This document shows, one piece after another, positions 11,381-17,673 of a stretch of DNA of 38,672 nucleotides. This stretch comes from Chamaesiphon sp. 336R_metabinner_41 (GTDB lineage: Bacteria > Cyanobacteriota > Cyanobacteriia > Cyanobacteriales > Chamaesiphonaceae), in the NCBI GenBank assembly GCA_025359915.1, contig JANYDE010000083.1, positions 1 through 38,672 of the forward strand. Direction: 5' to 3'. Both the position numbers and the translations under genes were made by a program. How positions within the stretch are numbered: position 1 is the first letter of the stretch; each line of letters starts with the position of its first letter. Below the pieces are notes generated by a model. It was not told where the DNA came from. It ran no database searches and saw nothing but the letters and a program-made list of their open reading frames with translations.

Positions 11381-12946
11381 TTAGCCGCCTAGTTTCTGTT
11401 CGACACCTTCCGTCTGAAACTTCATCTGTGCCCAAGTCAACTGCTTCACCTTCTCCACGTCACCCTTGCTTGCAGCATCCTTCAGATCTCGTTTCTCGTG
11501 GGCGATAGCTATCGCCTCCTCCTTTGAGCGGGAACTACTATCAAAACACTTCTCTAGGTTTTCAAACACCCCCCGCCGCGATTTAGTTGCGTGTTGGCGT
11601 TCCGTATCGAGTAATTTTGCCATCAATTCTAGATGCATGGCATCCTCACTACAGATTTCTTGCAAAATCGACCATTCATCATTACCTAATAGTTTCTTTT
11701 CCTGAACCCGCGTATCTTTAAACGGCTTGCCCATGACTTCTTCATAGATGCGCGGTAAACTATCATCAAATTCGTGTTTCTCTTCTAACCAAATCCGTCT
11801 AATTTCGCCTAACTCTTCCTCCGTAATCAGGGTGATATCTTGCATATCTAGTGGTGCCGTCTGCCGAATTTGCATCTGCGCCTCTAATACTCGTCGCAAC
11901 CAATGTTCGCGCCAGAATTTAGTATATGGCCCAGGAATTGGCACCACTTCTGTTGTGTTTTTATTTTCTTTAGACTTACGTTCAAACAGTTCAACTTTAC
12001 CATAGATCCGACGAAAATCTCGCTTATCTCGATCGTCATAAATATCCAATTCATTCCGAATATCTAACAACGGTTGCAACCATTCTTTATCCTCATCATT
12101 TTGAATCATCGCCTCCATCGATTTGTCTTTACTCACCAGTGTACATACCCAACAACCAAACCGAGAATCACCACAACTAGGTGTAGATGTATCAACAACC
12201 AATGGACATTCATTATCCGCAGTTGCCCCACGATAGAGCGTGAATAAATCCTGATTATTACCACCCCAAGGATTGGGAAATTGCATCAGATACATCCACA
12301 CCTCGTCAGTGCGCCAATCCTCGATCGGGCTATATATGAGAGAATTAGCTAAATTAGGATTAGGACTCAATCTATCTCTGACTCGGCCTACTTCATTCTT
12401 CTTTAAAACGGCGGCGCGAATAGTGCTTTCACTTTTGCGGACACCTAAAACAACAATTGTTTCACCATAAACTCGCAGAATATTGCGAACAAATTGATTG
12501 ACAGGCTTGATTTTCATCCGTTCCGTACACCACCGAAATCCATGCCGTGGGGCTGGATAACCTTTGCCCATCAAGCAAGACCAAAATGAATCTTTAGCTG
12601 GAGGGTGAAGTAAATGCGGCTCAAATGGCATTGACATTGATTCAGCCGCAGCCTTTAATTGTTTCATCGATCGATCGACCCAAACTGATACAATCGGATT
12701 CTCGACCAATGTATCTGTGGTCATCACATAAATTTTTTTGTGTCGCCGCTCGACGGGTAAAGCTTCAATTGCTGTCCAAATCAACTGTAAGATTGTTGAT
12801 GAATCCTTGCCCCAAGAAATGCCTAATATCCACGGCACACTATCACTCAGATACAAAGTTTGGATCTCTTTAGTCAGTTCGTCGATATGTTCTACTAATT
12901 GGGCTAAATTTCTTGATGAAGCTGCTGCGACTGGAAGACTGCTCAT
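11381..12946 (-). CDS. dndC: DNA phosphorothioation protein DndC
   Basis: 521 aa, usual length. DndC is a PAPS-reductase-like enzyme with ATP pyrophosphatase activity and a 4Fe-4S cluster. With DndA, D and E it replaces a non-bridging phosphate oxygen with sulfur in the DNA backbone. The PP-loop is seen as SWGKDS (44-49), where the usual motif is SGGKDS, so the second Gly is Trp. Cysteines at 124, 140, 247, 258, 265 and 268 (the last in SCGDSRFGCWVC) fit cluster ligation. GVRKSEST, SPIEDWRTDEVW and PIPGPYTKFWREHWLR are also typical. It starts 28 bp after the HNH gene stop, so the two form an apparent operon. dndD, dndE and dndA are not in the window; dndB lies 3.2 kb away on the other strand. 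Confidence 0.9.
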   Translation of the reverse strand: MSSLPVAAASSRNLAQLVEHIDELTKEIQTLYLSDSVPWILGISWGKDSSTILQLIWTAIEALPVERRHKKIYVMTTDTLVENPIVSVWVDRSMKQLKAAAESMSMPFEPHLLHPPAKDSFWSCLMGKGYPAPRHGFRWCTERMKIKPVNQFVRNILRVYGETIVVLGVRKSESTIRAAVLKKNEVGRVRDRLSPNPNLANSLIYSPIEDWRTDEVWMYLMQFPNPWGGNNQDLFTLYRGATADNECPLVVDTSTPSCGDSRFGCWVCTLVSKDKSMEAMIQNDEDKEWLQPLLDIRNELDIYDDRDKRDFRRIYGKVELFERKSKENKNTTEVVPIPGPYTKFWREHWLRRVLEAQMQIRQTAPLDMQDITLITEEELGEIRRIWLEEKHEFDDSLPRIYEEVMGKPFKDTRVQEKKLLGNDEWSILQEICSEDAMHLELMAKLLDTERQHATKSRRGVFENLEKCFDSSSRSKEEAIAIAHEKRDLKDAASKGDVEKVKQLTWAQMKFQTEGVEQKLGG

Positions 12947-12974
12947 GATGATAATTATTGTATTCTGAAATTTA

Positions 12975-13934
12975 TTAAGCTTTAAATTTATTTTGTCGAT
13001 GCCATTCGAGTGCTTCTAATCTTGGAAAGTACTGTTCTTTACTAGGTAGTGAGATAGACTCATGATGAAAATCTTTCATCGACCTAGCATATGGCGAATC
13101 ATCATCTAAATCTCCGGCAACTAAGATCTTATAATTATCATCGATAGTAAACCAACCTAAATCGAATGCCCAATGATGATTCTTACACAGAGATAATCCA
13201 TTATCAATTTTGCTATCCCCAAACTCAGCAAAATGTTTAATGTGGGCACCATCAACAATATTCTGTGTAGGGTTCCTGGTAATTCTTAATTGACAGAAGG
13301 CACATCTATAATTATAAGCATAGACAACTGATTTCCGAAATAAAGAATTCCTGACGACAGATTTACGCCAGACAACTTTAACATCAGCATCGAGGTTTTC
13401 TAATTCTAATCGATCTATTCGCTCTAACTTTTGATTGATATCTAATAAATCACTCAATTCTGTTTGACTATCTGCCAACCAAGTCGCAACTAGAATATCT
13501 ATCAGTACTTGTCTAGTCAATGGATCTTGAAGTAGAACGAACAATTCATCATCTAAATAAGCATAATCTACCAGCTCTTTTAACTTATTGGTAGTTTTGA
13601 TTCTTACCCCATCAGGTAGTTTCTCAGCTTTAAGATGCCAAAATCCATCACGACGCAGATGAGTAAATGGATAATGTATTCCACGTTGGTGACCAGAATC
13701 AAATTCTACAAAACTATTCCAGTATCTATTAAATATCTCAATTAATTCATCGGATACCAAGATACGATTATTAACAATCGATCCTTGAGCTACAAGCTCT
13801 AGCACTGATAACAATAAGATTGGCTTGTGTGGAGATTTACCACGACTTTTATTGTTGTTAACATTGAGATTTGCAAAGCATTTACAGTAATAAGCTAAAT
13901 CTTGCGGCTGAGGCTTTTCTATTAATTCACTCAT
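12975..13934 (-). CDS. Phosphorothioated-DNA-binding HNH restriction endonuclease (SBD-HNH)
   Basis: 319 aa. The N-terminal domain has SPHKPILLL (34-42) and YPFTHLRRDGFW (88-99), the two signature segments of the sulfur-binding domain of ScoMcrA/SprMcrA-type enzymes, which contact the phosphorothioate through a hydrophobic pocket. The C-terminal HNH nuclease has CAFC (211-214), DGAHIKH (228-234) and NGLSLCKNHHWAFD (245-258) with catalytic His and metal ligands. The two-domain layout and length fit the short SprMcrA form. Known relatives are type IV enzymes that cut phosphorothioated DNA and exclude dnd genes, so its position directly upstream of dndC is striking. A dispersed repeat (13953-13979) forms its leader. 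Domain naming rests on motif recall, not a search. Confidence 0.78.
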   Translation of the reverse strand: MSELIEKPQPQDLAYYCKCFANLNVNNNKSRGKSPHKPILLLSVLELVAQGSIVNNRILVSDELIEIFNRYWNSFVEFDSGHQRGIHYPFTHLRRDGFWHLKAEKLPDGVRIKTTNKLKELVDYAYLDDELFVLLQDPLTRQVLIDILVATWLADSQTELSDLLDINQKLERIDRLELENLDADVKVVWRKSVVRNSLFRKSVVYAYNYRCAFCQLRITRNPTQNIVDGAHIKHFAEFGDSKIDNGLSLCKNHHWAFDLGWFTIDDNYKILVAGDLDDDSPYARSMKDFHHESISLPSKEQYFPRLEALEWHRQNKFKA

Positions 13935-14127: not shown

Positions 14128-14868
14128 ATGACAGATAAATTGCAGCCCCAATTCGCCGAAATCCTTGCCCTCATCAAAACCGCTCAAAATTACGTCATTG
14201 CCACCAGCAACCAAGAACTGATCAAATTGTATTGGAGCATTGGTAAATATATCAGTGAACGCTTGAAAACCAGCGACTGGGGACAAAAAACAATCGAGCA
14301 ACTCGCCACATTCATCCAAACTCAAGAACCTGGCATCAAAGGATTTGAACGGCGTAACCTATACAGAATGCGCCAATTTTACGAAACCTACCCCGACGCT
14401 GAAATTGTGTCAGCAGTGCTGACACAATTAAACTGGACTCATCATTCAATTCTGATGTCGCGCTGCAAAACTGAAGCCGAGCGGCTATTTTACACCCAGC
14501 TCACCACCACAGAAAGATATACCACCCGCGAACTCGAACGACAAATCAATAGTGGTATCTTTGAGCGTACCCTACTCGCAGATGCCAAACTTCCACTAGC
14601 AACCCAATCACAGCCACAGAGACTGGCGGGAGTCTTTCGCGATAGCTACATTCTCGATTTTCTCAATCTGCCTCCCAGCCACTCGGAAAACGACCTTAAA
14701 ACAGCTTTGATTCTGTGTCTCAAAGACTTTATCCTCGAACTCGGGCGTGATTTCTCCTTTATGGGGCAGGAATATCGCCTCCAAGTTGGCAATACGGACT
14801 TTTTTATCGATTTACTTTTCTATCACCGCGAACTGCAAAGCCTTGTCGCCTTTGAACTCAAATACTAG
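14128..14868 (+). CDS. DUF1016/YhcG-family PDDEXK nuclease, C-terminally truncated
   Basis: 246 aa, against roughly 340-370 for complete members. The N-terminal DUF1016 domain (about 8-145) is intact, with ELIKLYWSIGKYISERLK and GFERRNLYRMRQFY. The C-terminal nuclease domain has FSFMGQEYRLQVGNTDFFID, providing the Asp, then reaches FELK, the ExK half of the active site, and stops one codon later. The remaining 90-120 residues of the nuclease fold are missing. The stop coincides with the start of an IS630 transposase fragment, so the truncation is an insertion/deletion scar. Full-length members occur with restriction-modification and phage-defence genes. The start is ATG 14128, with a promoter-like block upstream. 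Confidence 0.85.
   Translation: MTDKLQPQFAEILALIKTAQNYVIATSNQELIKLYWSIGKYISERLKTSDWGQKTIEQLATFIQTQEPGIKGFERRNLYRMRQFYETYPDAEIVSAVLTQLNWTHHSILMSRCKTEAERLFYTQLTTTERYTTRELERQINSGIFERTLLADAKLPLATQSQPQRLAGVFRDSYILDFLNLPPSHSENDLKTALILCLKDFILELGRDFSFMGQEYRLQVGNTDFFIDLLFYHRELQSLVAFELKY
14403..14429. repeat. 27-bp near-perfect palindrome inside the DUF1016 gene
   Basis: Arms of 13 bp (14403-14415 and 14417-14429) around a single G, with core TTGTGTCAGCA. It encodes EIVSAVLTQL. The mRNA would form a strong hairpin here. Confidence 0.75.
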
Positions 14869-15740
14869 CCATCACCGAAGAATATATCAGCATACTACTA
14901 GAATTAATTGAAATAGCTCCTGAAAAATATGGGTATGAATTTGGAAGATGGACAACAGCGCGGCTAGCAAAATATCTAGAAGAGAAAACGGGAATAAAAC
15001 TAAGTGGTACACAAGTAAGGAGGATTTTACAATCAAAAAAGTATGTTTACATCTGGGCTAAATACAGCCTAGAGGACAAGCAAAATCCAGGTAAAAGGAC
15101 TATCTTCAAGAAGAAGCTAGAAGAATATTTGCAAATAGCAAAAGAGCTTCCAAAGCTTTTACAGGTGTAGTTTTGGGATGAGAGTGGATTTAGTTTACGG
15201 GTAATTAGAAGAAAAAATTGGTGTAAGAAGGGAAGTAGAACGAAAAAAAGAGGTGATCGAAGAAAAGGTCGGATTAATGTAATGGGAGGAGTGAGATACT
15301 CAGACAAAAAAAGATGGGTAGATTTTATTCCAACTGGAAACTCTGTGAATTTTTATTTGGTCTTAGCAACTTTCTACGAGGATCTAAAACAAGAATGGAT
15401 AGAAGCAGGTAATTTAGCTGAAGATTTTAAAGAGAAAGGATGCAAAATTGTGATGATATTGGATAATGCTAGTTTTCATAAAAAAGAAGAAATTTTGCAG
15501 AAGATAGCATCAGAGATGCCAAACTTAATCATAGAATTATTGCCACCATATAGTCCCGATTACAATTTAGTCGAATTGGTGTGGCATTCAACTAAAGAGT
15601 ATATTGCCAATAGATTATTTGAATCGATAGAAAAGCTAGAGCTGGTATTGAATAATTTGCTAAATGAAGAAGGGCTAATTATGAAATGGGATCGAAAATT
15701 AAAGAACAAGGGCAATGCAGTTAATGTGGTTTAGATGTTC
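14869..15740 (+). mobile_element. IS630-family insertion sequence, 5'-truncated
   Basis: The transposase C-terminus and 3' end appear to be present, but the first helix-turn-helix and left end are missing. The left boundary is the DUF1016 truncation point and the right boundary runs into a HepT fragment. Element edges are approximate and no terminal inverted repeats could be paired. Confidence 0.7.
14871..15734 (+). pseudogene. IS630-family transposase, truncated and interrupted by an amber codon
   Basis: One continuous frame encodes the second half of the helix-turn-helix region (FGRWTTARLAKYLEEKTGI, SGTQVRRIL) and then the DDE catalytic domain. The first Asp is in FWDESGF, the second in ILDNASFH, and the Glu in PPYSPDYNLVELVW. 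It ends KNKGNAVNVV, the normal C-terminus. It lacks roughly the first 60 residues. A TAG at 15168-15170, where TGG (Trp, QVWFWDESGF) would be expected, separates the DNA-binding and catalytic parts. An ATG at 15282 could start only the tail of the catalytic domain, which lacks the first Asp. No active transposase is expected. Confidence 0.85.
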
Positions 15741-15744
15741 GACA

Positions 15745-16034
15745 GCTTATGAAAGTCAAGGGCGACAAGCTTTTGATGCACAAGAATTAATCCAGGTTTG
15801 GATGGTTCATCATTTCCAGCAGCTAATTCATTACCGCCAGAAAGATTGAGTCGCTATCCTCGTGTACCTTGGCGACAGATTATCGGGCTAAGAAATATGT
15901 TAGTCTACGAATATTTTAGAATCGATCGACAAGCAATTTGGGATATTATTGAGTCAGATTTACCACCCCTGAAATCGACAGTCGAACAAATGTTGACGGA
16001 TTTTAGCGATGATAATATTACCCCTAAATCATAA
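15745..16034 (+). pseudogene. Broken HepT-type (DUF86) toxin gene
   Basis: Two frames together read as the C-terminal two-thirds of a HepT protein. The first, from 15745, reads AYESQGRQAFDAQELIQVWM and continues to VHHFQ. The second, from about 15810, reads AANSLPPERLSRYPRVPWRQ and continues to IIGLRNMLVYEYF and the DLPPLK motif. Between VHHFQ and AANSLP the usual IIGE is missing and the frame changes, so a small deletion occurred. The N-terminus is lost at the IS630 junction, along with any MNT nucleotidyltransferase partner. The Rx4-6H-type active site appears as RNMLVYEYF, with Tyr where relatives usually have His (VHEYF). A 78-codon frame from 15798 is open but would start inside the fold. 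Confidence 0.72.
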
Positions 16035-16148: not shown

Positions 16149-16164
16149 TACTCAGCCGTTGATA

Positions 16165-17673
16165 ATGCCAGCCAGCAATATTCCTAGCATCCAGCCAAAT
16201 CAGATTCTCGTTCAACGTACCCAGATGGGCGGAAGTGAGTCATATATTGGCACAGTTACTTTGCAATGGTTGGCCGATCGAGTAAAATATGCCTCAGAGA
16301 TGAGTTTGTTATCAGAGAAATATCAGGCAGAAGAACAGAATATTGCCATCGACAGTGACACGATCGAAATCATTCAACAGCGTCCGTTGGATTGGACTAG
16401 ACAGGCTGCATTAGTTCAGTATTTAGCAGGGCGAACTACGCACAAATTCCCGCCAGTATTAGTTACAGTCGATCGAGCTTGGGTGGATAATATCCATGCG
16501 GATGAATGGGGTAGGGGTGGGAAAGCAACTGAGTCGGCAGCGATATTTACAGCTATTGATGGGAATGACAATGTTGGTTTATTAGATGTGGGTGAATCGG
16601 TGCGGATTTATGCCCTCGATGGACAACATCGATTGATGGGTGTGCAGGGATTGATAGAGTTATTAAATACGGGAGAATTAGCTCGATATAATAAGGATCG
16701 ACATCCGGTGGGGAGTAAAATTACTCGTGCAGAATTGAGGACATCGGATGAATATTTAGAAAGTTTACCCCAAGAAAAGATCGGGGTTGAATTTATTTCG
16801 GCGGTGGTGGAAGGGGAAACACAATTAGCAGCAAGAAGGAGAATTCGATCGATCTTTGTGCATGTGAATTTGATGGCGGTGGCTTTGAGTAAGGGACAGT
16901 TAGCGCAATTAGATGAAAATGATGGCTTTGCAATTGTGGCGCGGAATATTGCCGTCAATCATCCGTTATTAAAAGATCTCTCTGGACGCAAACCGCGCGT
17001 AAATTGGGATAGTGCGACGGTGGCGACGAAGACAACCGTGCTGACTACTTTACAAGCTTTGCAAGATATGGCGGCGAAATATCTCCAGTATCAATTTCCC
17101 AACTGGAAGCCCAAAGCGCAAAAAGGTTTAGTTCCCCTACGTCCAGACACAGCCGAGCTAGAATTGGGGATGGCAGCTTTTAGTGAGCTATTCGATCGCA
17201 TGTCCCAATTTACCAGTTTCGGACGCTTAAAGGGGGAAGATACCCCCAAATTACGCCGCTTTAGCTTTGAACCTGGGGGCGGTGAAGGACATATTTTATT
17301 TCGCCCTGTCGGACAAGTGGCTTTTGCTCAGGGGGTGGGAATGGCGGTTTTTAAGAAACAAATTGCCCAAACCGAGGTTTTCCGTAAACTCGATCGATAT
17401 GATGCTGATGGTGGGTTTAGTCAGATCGATACACCCCAATCCCTCTGGTATGGGATTTTATACGATCCAAATAAGAAACGGATTCTTGTCTCTGGGCGAG
17501 ATTTGGCGGCTAAGTTGATTGTATATCTGTTGGGTGGAGTCGATAATGATTTCGATCGAGCCGAACTCCGTCGTCAGGTAGCTGAAGCGAGAAGTATTGG
17601 TGAATATGCAATGAGTTTTGAAGGGAAATTAGTTACGCCTAAGGAAGTTGGGTTACCTCCAGTATTGATTTGA
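16165..17673 (+). CDS. dndB: DndB, DGQHR-domain protein of the phosphorothioation system
   Basis: 502 aa from ATG 16165; a TTG six bases earlier is in frame. The diagnostic DGQHR motif is at about 152-156 within IYALDGQHRLMGVQGL. It is followed by IGVEFISAVVEG and a VHVNLMAVALSKGQLAQLDE segment, as in ParB-like DGQHR proteins. DndB is not essential for sulfur insertion. In characterised systems it limits modification and acts as a transcriptional repressor of dnd genes. That makes the palindrome just upstream, also found before the DUF1016 gene, a candidate target. dndB is usually next to dndC; here it is 3.2 kb away, on the opposite strand, beyond an IS scar. Other DGQHR proteins exist, so the DndB call is likely but not certain. 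Confidence 0.82.
   Translation: MPASNIPSIQPNQILVQRTQMGGSESYIGTVTLQWLADRVKYASEMSLLSEKYQAEEQNIAIDSDTIEIIQQRPLDWTRQAALVQYLAGRTTHKFPPVLVTVDRAWVDNIHADEWGRGGKATESAAIFTAIDGNDNVGLLDVGESVRIYALDGQHRLMGVQGLIELLNTGELARYNKDRHPVGSKITRAELRTSDEYLESLPQEKIGVEFISAVVEGETQLAARRRIRSIFVHVNLMAVALSKGQLAQLDENDGFAIVARNIAVNHPLLKDLSGRKPRVNWDSATVATKTTVLTTLQALQDMAAKYLQYQFPNWKPKAQKGLVPLRPDTAELELGMAAFSELFDRMSQFTSFGRLKGEDTPKLRRFSFEPGGGEGHILFRPVGQVAFAQGVGMAVFKKQIAQTEVFRKLDRYDADGGFSQIDTPQSLWYGILYDPNKKRILVSGRDLAAKLIVYLLGGVDNDFDRAELRRQVAEARSIGEYAMSFEGKLVTPKEVGLPPVLI

Follow-up and report, generated by a model that had tools for sequence, protein, structure and literature searches.

The window analysed here covers positions 1 to 38,672 of contig JANYDE010000083.1 from the assembly GCA_025359915.1 of the cyanobacterium Chamaesiphon sp. 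336R_metabinner_41. Its minus strand carries a gene for an HNH endonuclease with an N-terminal sulfur-binding domain (SBD) and, directly downstream, dndC, which encodes the sulfurtransferase of DNA phosphorothioation (Table 1). This SBD-HNH nuclease and the sulfur-writing dndC probably belong to one defence system. The coordinates of the open reading frames (ORFs) agree with the original prediction that the nuclease gene ends 28 bp before dndC on the same strand (gap 12947-12974), and the protein contains both segments by which its SBD had been recognised, SPHKP (residues 34-38) and YPFTHLRRDGFW (residues 88-99). The dndC gene is intact; its product passes the TIGR03183 equivalog cut-off of 290.4 bits with 677 bits, and the PP-loop residues S44, K47, D48 and S49 as well as C140, C247, C258, C265, C268 and C467 are near-invariant in 73 sequences.

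Table 1. The SBD-HNH/dndC pair and associated features, in window coordinates (aa, amino acids)
Feature	Coordinates	Strand	Basis
SBD-HNH endonuclease gene	12975..13934	-	ORF, 319 aa; profile, sequence and fold matches
Sulfur-binding domain, residues 11-156	13467..13904	-	predicted fold on 8h0l and 5zmo; residue table
HNH nuclease domain, residues 193-319	12978..13358	-	Pfam HNH_2 E 1e-08; TagI fold Z 11.7
Spacer, HNH stop to dndC start	12947..12974	-	28 bp
dndC, sulfurtransferase of DNA phosphorothioation	11381..12946	-	521 aa; TIGR03183 677 bits; PADLOC DndC 641 bits
DndB-like DGQHR protein	16159..17673	+	504 aa; TIGR03187 154 bits; Pfam DndB E 8e-14

A scan for terminator-like sites gave none between the two genes on the minus strand; the single one on that strand lies downstream of dndC (11335-11321). 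One promoter-like match stands just ahead of dndC (12986-12957, 9 of 12). Since promoter-like matches occur at chance frequency (10 found against 10.5 expected) and no terminator separates the genes, HNH and dndC are likely to share one transcript. The DndB-like gene is divergent and 2.2 kb away from the HNH gene; its product scores 17.8 bits against the DndB equivalog TIGR03233 and so does not reach the cut-off of 328 bits. The interval between these two genes (14128-16031) holds a shortened DUF1016/YhcG gene (246 aa), whose profile match stops within the nuclease domain, a piece of an IS630-type transposase (15282-15734) and what remains of a HepT gene (15846-16031, E 4e-16). The corresponding interval of the relative L152 has a RES/Xre toxin-antitoxin pair and a nucleotidyltransferase in place of these genes.

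Domains and residues of the SBD-HNH protein

The AlphaFold2 model of the protein, built on a 54-sequence alignment, has a mean predicted local distance difference test score (pLDDT) of 80 and is weak at residues 222-230 (pLDDT under 50). In this model residues 11-156 superpose on SBD-Hga (8h0l) with Z 21.8 and 1.8 Å across 142 residues, the SBD also matches those of ScoMcrA (5zmo, Z 13.8) and SprMcrA (7cc9, Z 13.2), and residues 193-319 match the HNH domain of TagI (Z 11.7). A phmmer search against the PDB returned SBDHga1 (8h0l) with E 1.1e-16 over residues 15-159. The N-terminal domain hence aligns with SBDs in sequence (8h0l) as well as in predicted fold (8h0l, 5zmo and 7cc9), as the original prediction implied. 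The NCBIfam model NF045808, 'phosphorothioated DNA-binding restriction endonuclease', covers residues 21-318 (E 1.5e-40) with 139 bits, and because this is under its curated cut-off of 180 we file the window protein as a relative and not as a member of the family. No SRA/SAD domain was found: the SBD match stops near residue 156, the HNH match starts near residue 193, and HNH_2 is the only Pfam profile over its cut-off.

Literature is cited here by PubMed Central number. With residue roles in the pocket and the HNH domain taken from ScoMcrA (PMC6224610), the sulfur pocket of the window protein is formed by H36 and K37 (ScoMcrA H116 and R117) together with Y88 and P89 (Y164 and P165) and is canonical. 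Its HNH residues are C211, C214, D228, H231, N245, C250, H253 and H254. Each active-site residue is kept in 78 or 79 of 79 dndC-linked relatives, the catalytic H231 in 78 and N245 and H254 in all 79. The zinc-type residues comprise three cysteines and probably a histidine, where ScoMcrA has four zinc cysteines.

The pair and its Dnd and Pbe-like neighbours

A scan of genome contigs returned 246 relatives, the best 80 of which (L152-L231), all cyanobacterial by title, were kept. In 72 of these loci an intact dndC (500 aa or more) lies downstream on the same strand, so that the apparent operon noticed in the window proves to be widely conserved. HNH is itself intact in 69 of these and broken in three; in the remaining loci dndC is cut by the contig end (three), reduced to a remnant beside an intact HNH (one) or absent before the stretch ends (four). 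The two genes are directly adjacent, with a gap under 100 bp, in 33 of the 80; a DndB-like gene on the opposite strand stands between them (or after HNH at a contig end) in 40, one or two AAA-ATPase genes in two, and no recognised gene between or after in five. Frame overlap of HNH and dndC, seen in 8 of the 33 adjacent pairs, was not used as evidence since it depends on the first-start rule, a later Met giving a gap of 14 to 34 bp in all eight. An AAA-ATPase gene (about 515 aa; its Pfam scan was made on the L085 copy) occurs in tandem between HNH and dndC, as two copies at L086:6830-9963 and three at L087:7333-12067.

The query profile was drawn mostly from dndC-linked proteins and the best 80 were chosen by similarity, so that linked relatives are favoured in this set; the class survey of 242 genomes therefore gives the less biased figure. 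SBD-HNH was defined there as an NF045808 match of 90 bits or more, a threshold chosen after the first results. Over cut-off, dndC was found in 43 genomes, dndD in 46, dndE in 49 and the TIGR04095 helicase in 48. SBD-HNH is present in 48 of the 242. Of these 48, 23 are among the 43 genomes with dndC and the other 25 among the 199 that lack it (Fisher p 3e-8, with no correction for kinship). Within the taxonomic order of the window, dndC occurs in 22 of 27 sampled genomes, and SBD-HNH in 13 of these 22 and in none of the other five; weaker NF045808 matches (37 to 76 bits), mostly to the HNH part alone, are present in two of those five (G065 and G218). Where both genes were found, they are linked within 10 kb in 19 of 23 genomes, as read by hand, and lie on different contigs in the other four. 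Of the 19 linked pairs, those of G231 and G116 have a broken HNH, so that the survey list takes in a few broken genes; in G164 the dndC gene is shortened, and in G089 it contains a stop. The best loci and the survey loci (L075-L151) overlap partly, and several regions are counted twice.

The HNH tree comprises 109 rows, with the distant long branch L128_m4717 dropped from residue and trait counts. On this tree dndC linkage changes ten times with the first labels, and four times when contig-cut rows are set aside or when L159, L162 and L169, whose dndC is cut by the contig end, are counted as linked. With four changes the linkage appears old and mostly inherited. One HNH-keeping branch of 33 rows is mostly without dndC (19 without, five with remnants, seven with dndC, two cut), which we read as loss of dndC. 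HNH and DndC distances correlate at 0.90 across 43 loci, with a partial correlation of 0.41 given DndD and DndE; this fits joint inheritance and is no proof of contact. Both genes are under purifying selection in Chamaesiphon. Between the window and L152, a Chamaesiphon metagenome-assembled genome (MAG) and the best relative (91% protein identity), the ratio of nonsynonymous to synonymous substitution rates (dN/dS) is 0.10 for HNH (0.045 in the nuclease part, 0.12-0.15 in the SBD part) and 0.06-0.09 for dndC and the DndB-like gene. Against L153, HNH is 63% and DndC 88% identical. Five phage records gave no match spanning 80% of the HNH protein, and six viral loci held HNH-domain pieces only.

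In relatives the cluster reads helicase, small ORF, SMC-like ATPase, TIGR04062 protein, HNH, dndB (reverse), dndC, dndD, dndE and TIGR04096 methyltransferase, and thus includes a gene order of the PbeABCD type (helicase, small ORF, SMC-like ATPase, TIGR04062 protein of about 156 aa). A small ORF lies between the helicase and SMC genes in all 46 locus records in which these are neighbours, which represent fewer genomes since some regions occur twice; 41 of the ORFs clearly form one family, and those of L148, L173, L179, L197 and L221 do not and are perhaps chance frames. In 40 of the best 80 loci the TIGR04062 gene immediately precedes HNH, at a distance of -4 to 47 bp. Its slot is optional, being taken by a second DGQHR protein in L096-L098 and L100 and by other genes elsewhere. 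A Chloroflexota plasmid (L244, NZ_CP128401.1) carries a helicase, a 65-aa ORF, a short AAA ATPase, HNH and dndB, E, D, C and B together.

Several further observations concern the cluster. The frame of the PbeA-like TIGR04095 helicase measures mostly about 460-550 aa in the window's taxonomic order and mostly 700-770 aa in others; two long helicases have a weak PLD-like N-terminal domain under the Pfam cut-off (L079, E 3e-5; L077, E 3e-4) and the short ones of L084 and L076 have none, so that SBD-HNH may be the sole nuclease of the cluster in the window's order. Stand-alone SBD proteins of 166-197 aa, with no nuclease, are encoded just upstream of SBD-HNH, in several cases overlapping or abutting it (L115:6004-6579, L144:7622-8215, L088, L117, L119, L125-L128, L134 and L140). 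They are found mostly where an intact dndC is missing, the L115 copy matches the Hga SBD with E 1.8e-21, and they are possibly separate readers of phosphorothioate (PT). A further DndC-like protein, short at mostly about 400 aa, is encoded on the strand opposite to dndC or dndE in L109-L114, L127, L133 and L147-L151; it lies near the TIGR04096 methyltransferase where that gene is in view and mostly scores about 100-144 bits against TIGR03183, under the cut-off.

The window's own assembly comprises 4.23 Mb in 169 contigs, has a completeness of 100 and is that of a Chamaesiphon-like genome. It holds one dndC, on the window contig, one dndD over cut-off (contig C131, 627 bits), dndE (C14, 127.7 bits), a PbeA-like TIGR04095 helicase (C73, 638 bits), a PbeC-like SMC-like ATPase (C72, 985 bits against a model built from relatives) and a PbeD-like TIGR04062 protein (C62, 173 bits). 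A 58-aa PbeB-like frame directly precedes the ATPase (C72:5222-5338), so that the pbeB-pbeC pair stays joined. The dndC, dndD, dndE, DndB-like and PbeABCD-like genes are all full length and occupy six contigs in total, with HNH and dndC joined and dndD, dndE, pbeA, pbeD and the pbeB-pbeC pair on five others. No other dnd or pbe model match was found in 20 kb around dndD (L092) or 13 kb around dndE (L095); the C73 and C62 stretches were read by eye, and the genes on C14 and C73 lie less than 4 kb from a contig end. No second dndC and no standard dndBCDE operon was found in the genome; a complete dndBCDE elsewhere, together with a pair conserved nowhere, would have told against the original prediction.

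Could Dnd modification simply be silent or broken here, and the nuclease therefore harmless? The original prediction had offered an inactive or incomplete Dnd system as one way out, and we regard it as scarcely credible. The dnd genes do lie on separate contigs with no single operon in the assembly, and for toxic Microcoleus it has been suggested that the system may suffer from the scattering of dndBC and dndDE (PMC8546630). However, the writer genes are full length, dndC and the DndB-like gene as well as HNH have a low dN/dS, and Chamaesiphon and Microcystis relatives have the same gene set. In the Chamaesiphon MAGs L152 and L153 and the Microcystis loci L191, L194 and L196 the pair persists with neither dndD nor dndE in the part of the locus in view, and both genes were found over cut-off in all 12 genomes searched, those of these five and of L206, L173, L179, L223, L230, L197 and L178, with dndD split into two pieces on two contigs in L173. 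Ten of the 12 loci show no dndD, the others (L223 and L230) having it in the locus; the contigs of L197 and L206 end just past dndC. In the comparison of Microcystis with and without HNH (L191, L194 and L196 against L102 and L104) dndC alone could be aligned. The idea of a compact system lacking DndFGH stands only in part. Compact it is not, since a PbeABCD-like module lies beside the pair in relatives and is scattered in the window's genome. As to DndFGH, none of the 242 genomes gave a DndH-type (TIGR03237) match, but the search control was likewise silent, in all 14 genomes; the absence of dndFGH has been published for Nostocales (PMC8569181).

A proposed gated nuclease and its alternatives

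We tentatively favour, with somewhat less than even confidence, the view that SBD-HNH is the built-in, restrained nuclease of a cyanobacterial Dnd-Pbe phosphorothioation defence and is apparently made together with DndC. The SBD would read the PT marks laid by DndCDE on the host's own DNA, and this reading would position or license the enzyme without itself causing cutting. Restraint could be exerted by proteins of the Pbe-like module, by the DndB-like protein or by a complex with DndC, until invasion releases HNH, which would then cut or nick the invading DNA or, as a last resort, marked self DNA. HNH would in this way serve as a gated restriction or abortive arm, and the timed, abortive action offered in the original prediction would be compatible with this. 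At the level of sequence, support for this view has been shown in the fold, the active-site residues, the complete writer gene set, the conserved pairing and purifying selection; PT binding, restraint and trigger we infer, and the gating has analogies in archaeal PbeABCD, SspE and DndI. HNH and dndC co-occur rather than avoid each other, their pairing survives dispersal of the other dnd and pbe genes, and in relatives HNH sits in the Pbe-like module, a similar set being present on the Chloroflexota plasmid. A PT-reading nuclease that stands beside the writer and retains its active-site residues probably does not just cut every PT site of the host. HNH is also unlikely to cut unmarked DNA at large, because it survives in genomes that revealed no writer: in 22 of the 48 genomes with HNH, no dndC or dndD over cut-off was found. 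A gated PT-dependent nuclease of a Dnd-Pbe system would be the simplest reading left, with a type IV guard directed at a different motif as its main rival.

A number of observations weigh against a gated nuclease. In the window's genome HNH does not adjoin the Pbe-like genes. Nine of the 22 dndC genomes of its taxonomic order are without an HNH of 90 bits or more, which makes HNH optional. In two Microcystis dN/dS is higher (HNH 0.18-0.25, dndC 0.21-0.26), and the same two are 96% identical in HNH and 83% in DndC, so that joint inheritance of the pair does not hold throughout. Nor is the sulfur pocket invariant: the position of ScoMcrA H116 is H in only 23 of the 79 dndC-linked relatives and Y or N in 56, and that of K117 is Q in 13, with the Chamaesiphon locus L153 among the departures. 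The changes R117Q and H116I lower PT binding (PMC6224610). Finally, a broken HNH stands beside an intact dndC in three of the 80 best loci, as well as in the survey loci L089 and L099, as expected if HNH is potentially harmful, or if the draft sequences contain errors.

That linked proteins vary at H116 and K117 is the best evidence in the sequences for altered reading in part of the family, where specificity may have changed; the window protein is canonical. A tie between loss of the pocket histidine and dndC linkage (raw H counts 23 of 79 linked and 16 of 22 unlinked) was considered and dropped, as just three to four independent pairs bear on it and none supports it. The main rival reading is that HNH is a type IV guard, which cuts PT DNA in a context left unmarked by the host's DndCDE and so excludes competing dnd-carrying plasmids or phages. 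Base reading differs between SBDs (PMC6224610, PMC7470945), dndC-linked proteins differ from one another at pocket positions H116 and Y164, some cyanobacterial plasmids carry dnd genes, and the same explanation is offered in PMC7461809 for its unresolved neighbour cases. Even so, a guard leaves unexplained why HNH and dndC are joined where the other dnd genes are scattered and why HNH so often stands directly behind the PbeD-like gene, and we consider it unlikely. Among the plasmids, the Picosynechococcus plasmids L242 and L247 have SBD-HNH beside dnd genes, with a dndC that lacks its N-terminal part (332-335 aa left); dndD and dndE of the L242 plasmid are apparently whole.

The same H116 and K117 variation could be taken to mean that the SBD has changed, and that HNH cuts unmarked DNA from which PT protects the host, as in classical restriction. 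This is very improbable, as P165 is kept in 77 of the 79 linked proteins, 22 rows that have no intact dndC close by (17 with none, five with a remnant; a few of the genomes have dndC elsewhere) carry HNH with all active-site residues, and 22 HNH genomes have no dndC or dndD over cut-off. Genomes with dndD and no dndC over cut-off number four, three of them with HNH, and are too few for an argument on loss specific to dndC.

Broken genes could also point to a suicide enzyme, always able to cut the cell's own PT sites and held by a labile inhibitor, DndC or DndB until a phage frees it and the cell dies. The three best loci with a broken HNH beside an intact dndC, and the intact HNH beside a lost or shortened dndC in L090, L127, L226 and L242, are as expected if both genes together are costly, and the intact active sites and the co-transcription with dndC that adjacency suggests would suit such an enzyme. 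We nevertheless hold it to be improbable: no inhibitor has been identified, and HNH occurs in 25 survey genomes without dndC over cut-off, where an enzyme of self-PT suicide would idle.

If SBD-HNH is indeed a gated nuclease of Dnd-Pbe, a wider picture can be drawn, which we put forward as doubtful. The PT-reading nuclease, which by rights should destroy the marked DNA of its own cell, would be a standing, gated member of the writer set in cyanobacterial PT restriction. Conditional safety and not incompatibility would be ancestral, dnd being thought to have begun in cyanobacteria, and the type IV SBD-HNH enzymes that stand alone would have escaped from such systems as effectors.

Relation to known systems

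A search of the literature found no description of a two-domain SBD-HNH/dndC pair in cyanobacteria, although subscription papers and supplements (PMC7461809 Table S4) may list it. According to PMC7461809, a PT-reading nuclease and an active PT writer of matching specificity are not expected in one host, and fewer than 3.6% of the predicted enzymes lie near dnd, with about 65 unresolved cases; here a reader nuclease and the writer gene dndC form a conserved pair. If confirmed, the pair would offer a tractable case for studying how a modification-dependent nuclease is made to spare self DNA. It is also relevant to the inference, published earlier, that dnd of cyanobacteria lacked a restriction part and is of antioxidant origin (PMC8569181, repeated in PMC12707154). 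A restriction role had been argued earlier for Microcoleus, where a dnd helicase-type 'restriction enzyme' lies upstream of dndBCDE and dndBC stands apart from dndDE (PMC8546630). In several cyanobacteria, including Microcystis PCC 7806, dndC-D-E are still clustered (PMC2442094). The accessible text of neither of these two papers mentions an HNH.

The general idea is known: a role in restriction has already been proposed for the SBD-bearing HNH proteins of Dnd loci (PMC10853773). The wHTH(SBD)+SAD+HNH proteins of that paper resemble ours in being SBD-bearing HNH enzymes in Dnd neighbourhoods, recorded in 698 taxa; they differ in that they have a SAD domain and are encoded mainly downstream of the modification genes, whereas the protein described here has two domains and its gene lies upstream of dndC. 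The accessible text of that paper names no cyanobacteria. With the PT-dependent endonucleases ScoMcrA, SprMcrA and EcoWI, of SBD-HNH or SBD-SRA-HNH build, the window protein shares the SBD fold, the pocket and the HNH catalytic residues, and its cleavage may depend on PT as theirs does. It differs from them and from NF045808 in scoring under the cut-off of that family, in having no SRA domain and in standing beside an intact dndC in a genome with the full set of writers.

The closest likeness for the whole cluster is the archaeal DndCDEA-PbeABCD system, in which a helicase, a 66-aa PbeB, an SMC-like protein and a 152-aa PbeD accompany the PT writer (PMC6459918). The cyanobacterial loci have the same kinds of genes in the same order and of similar sizes. 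Archaeal PbeABCD needs PT in trans, is non-toxic without PT and leaves viral DNA uncut, and, unlike in the cyanobacterial clusters, no HNH is named in the accessible text of PMC6459918. DndI (PMC11662687) and SspE (PMC9646914) are nucleases, as here, and both sense host PT: SspE relies on it, and DndI uses it for letting go of self DNA. DndI has ATPase activity, whereas Pfam gives no nucleoside triphosphatase domain over its cut-off in the window protein; what the latter may share with both is a nuclease activity governed by the marks that the host lays on its own DNA.

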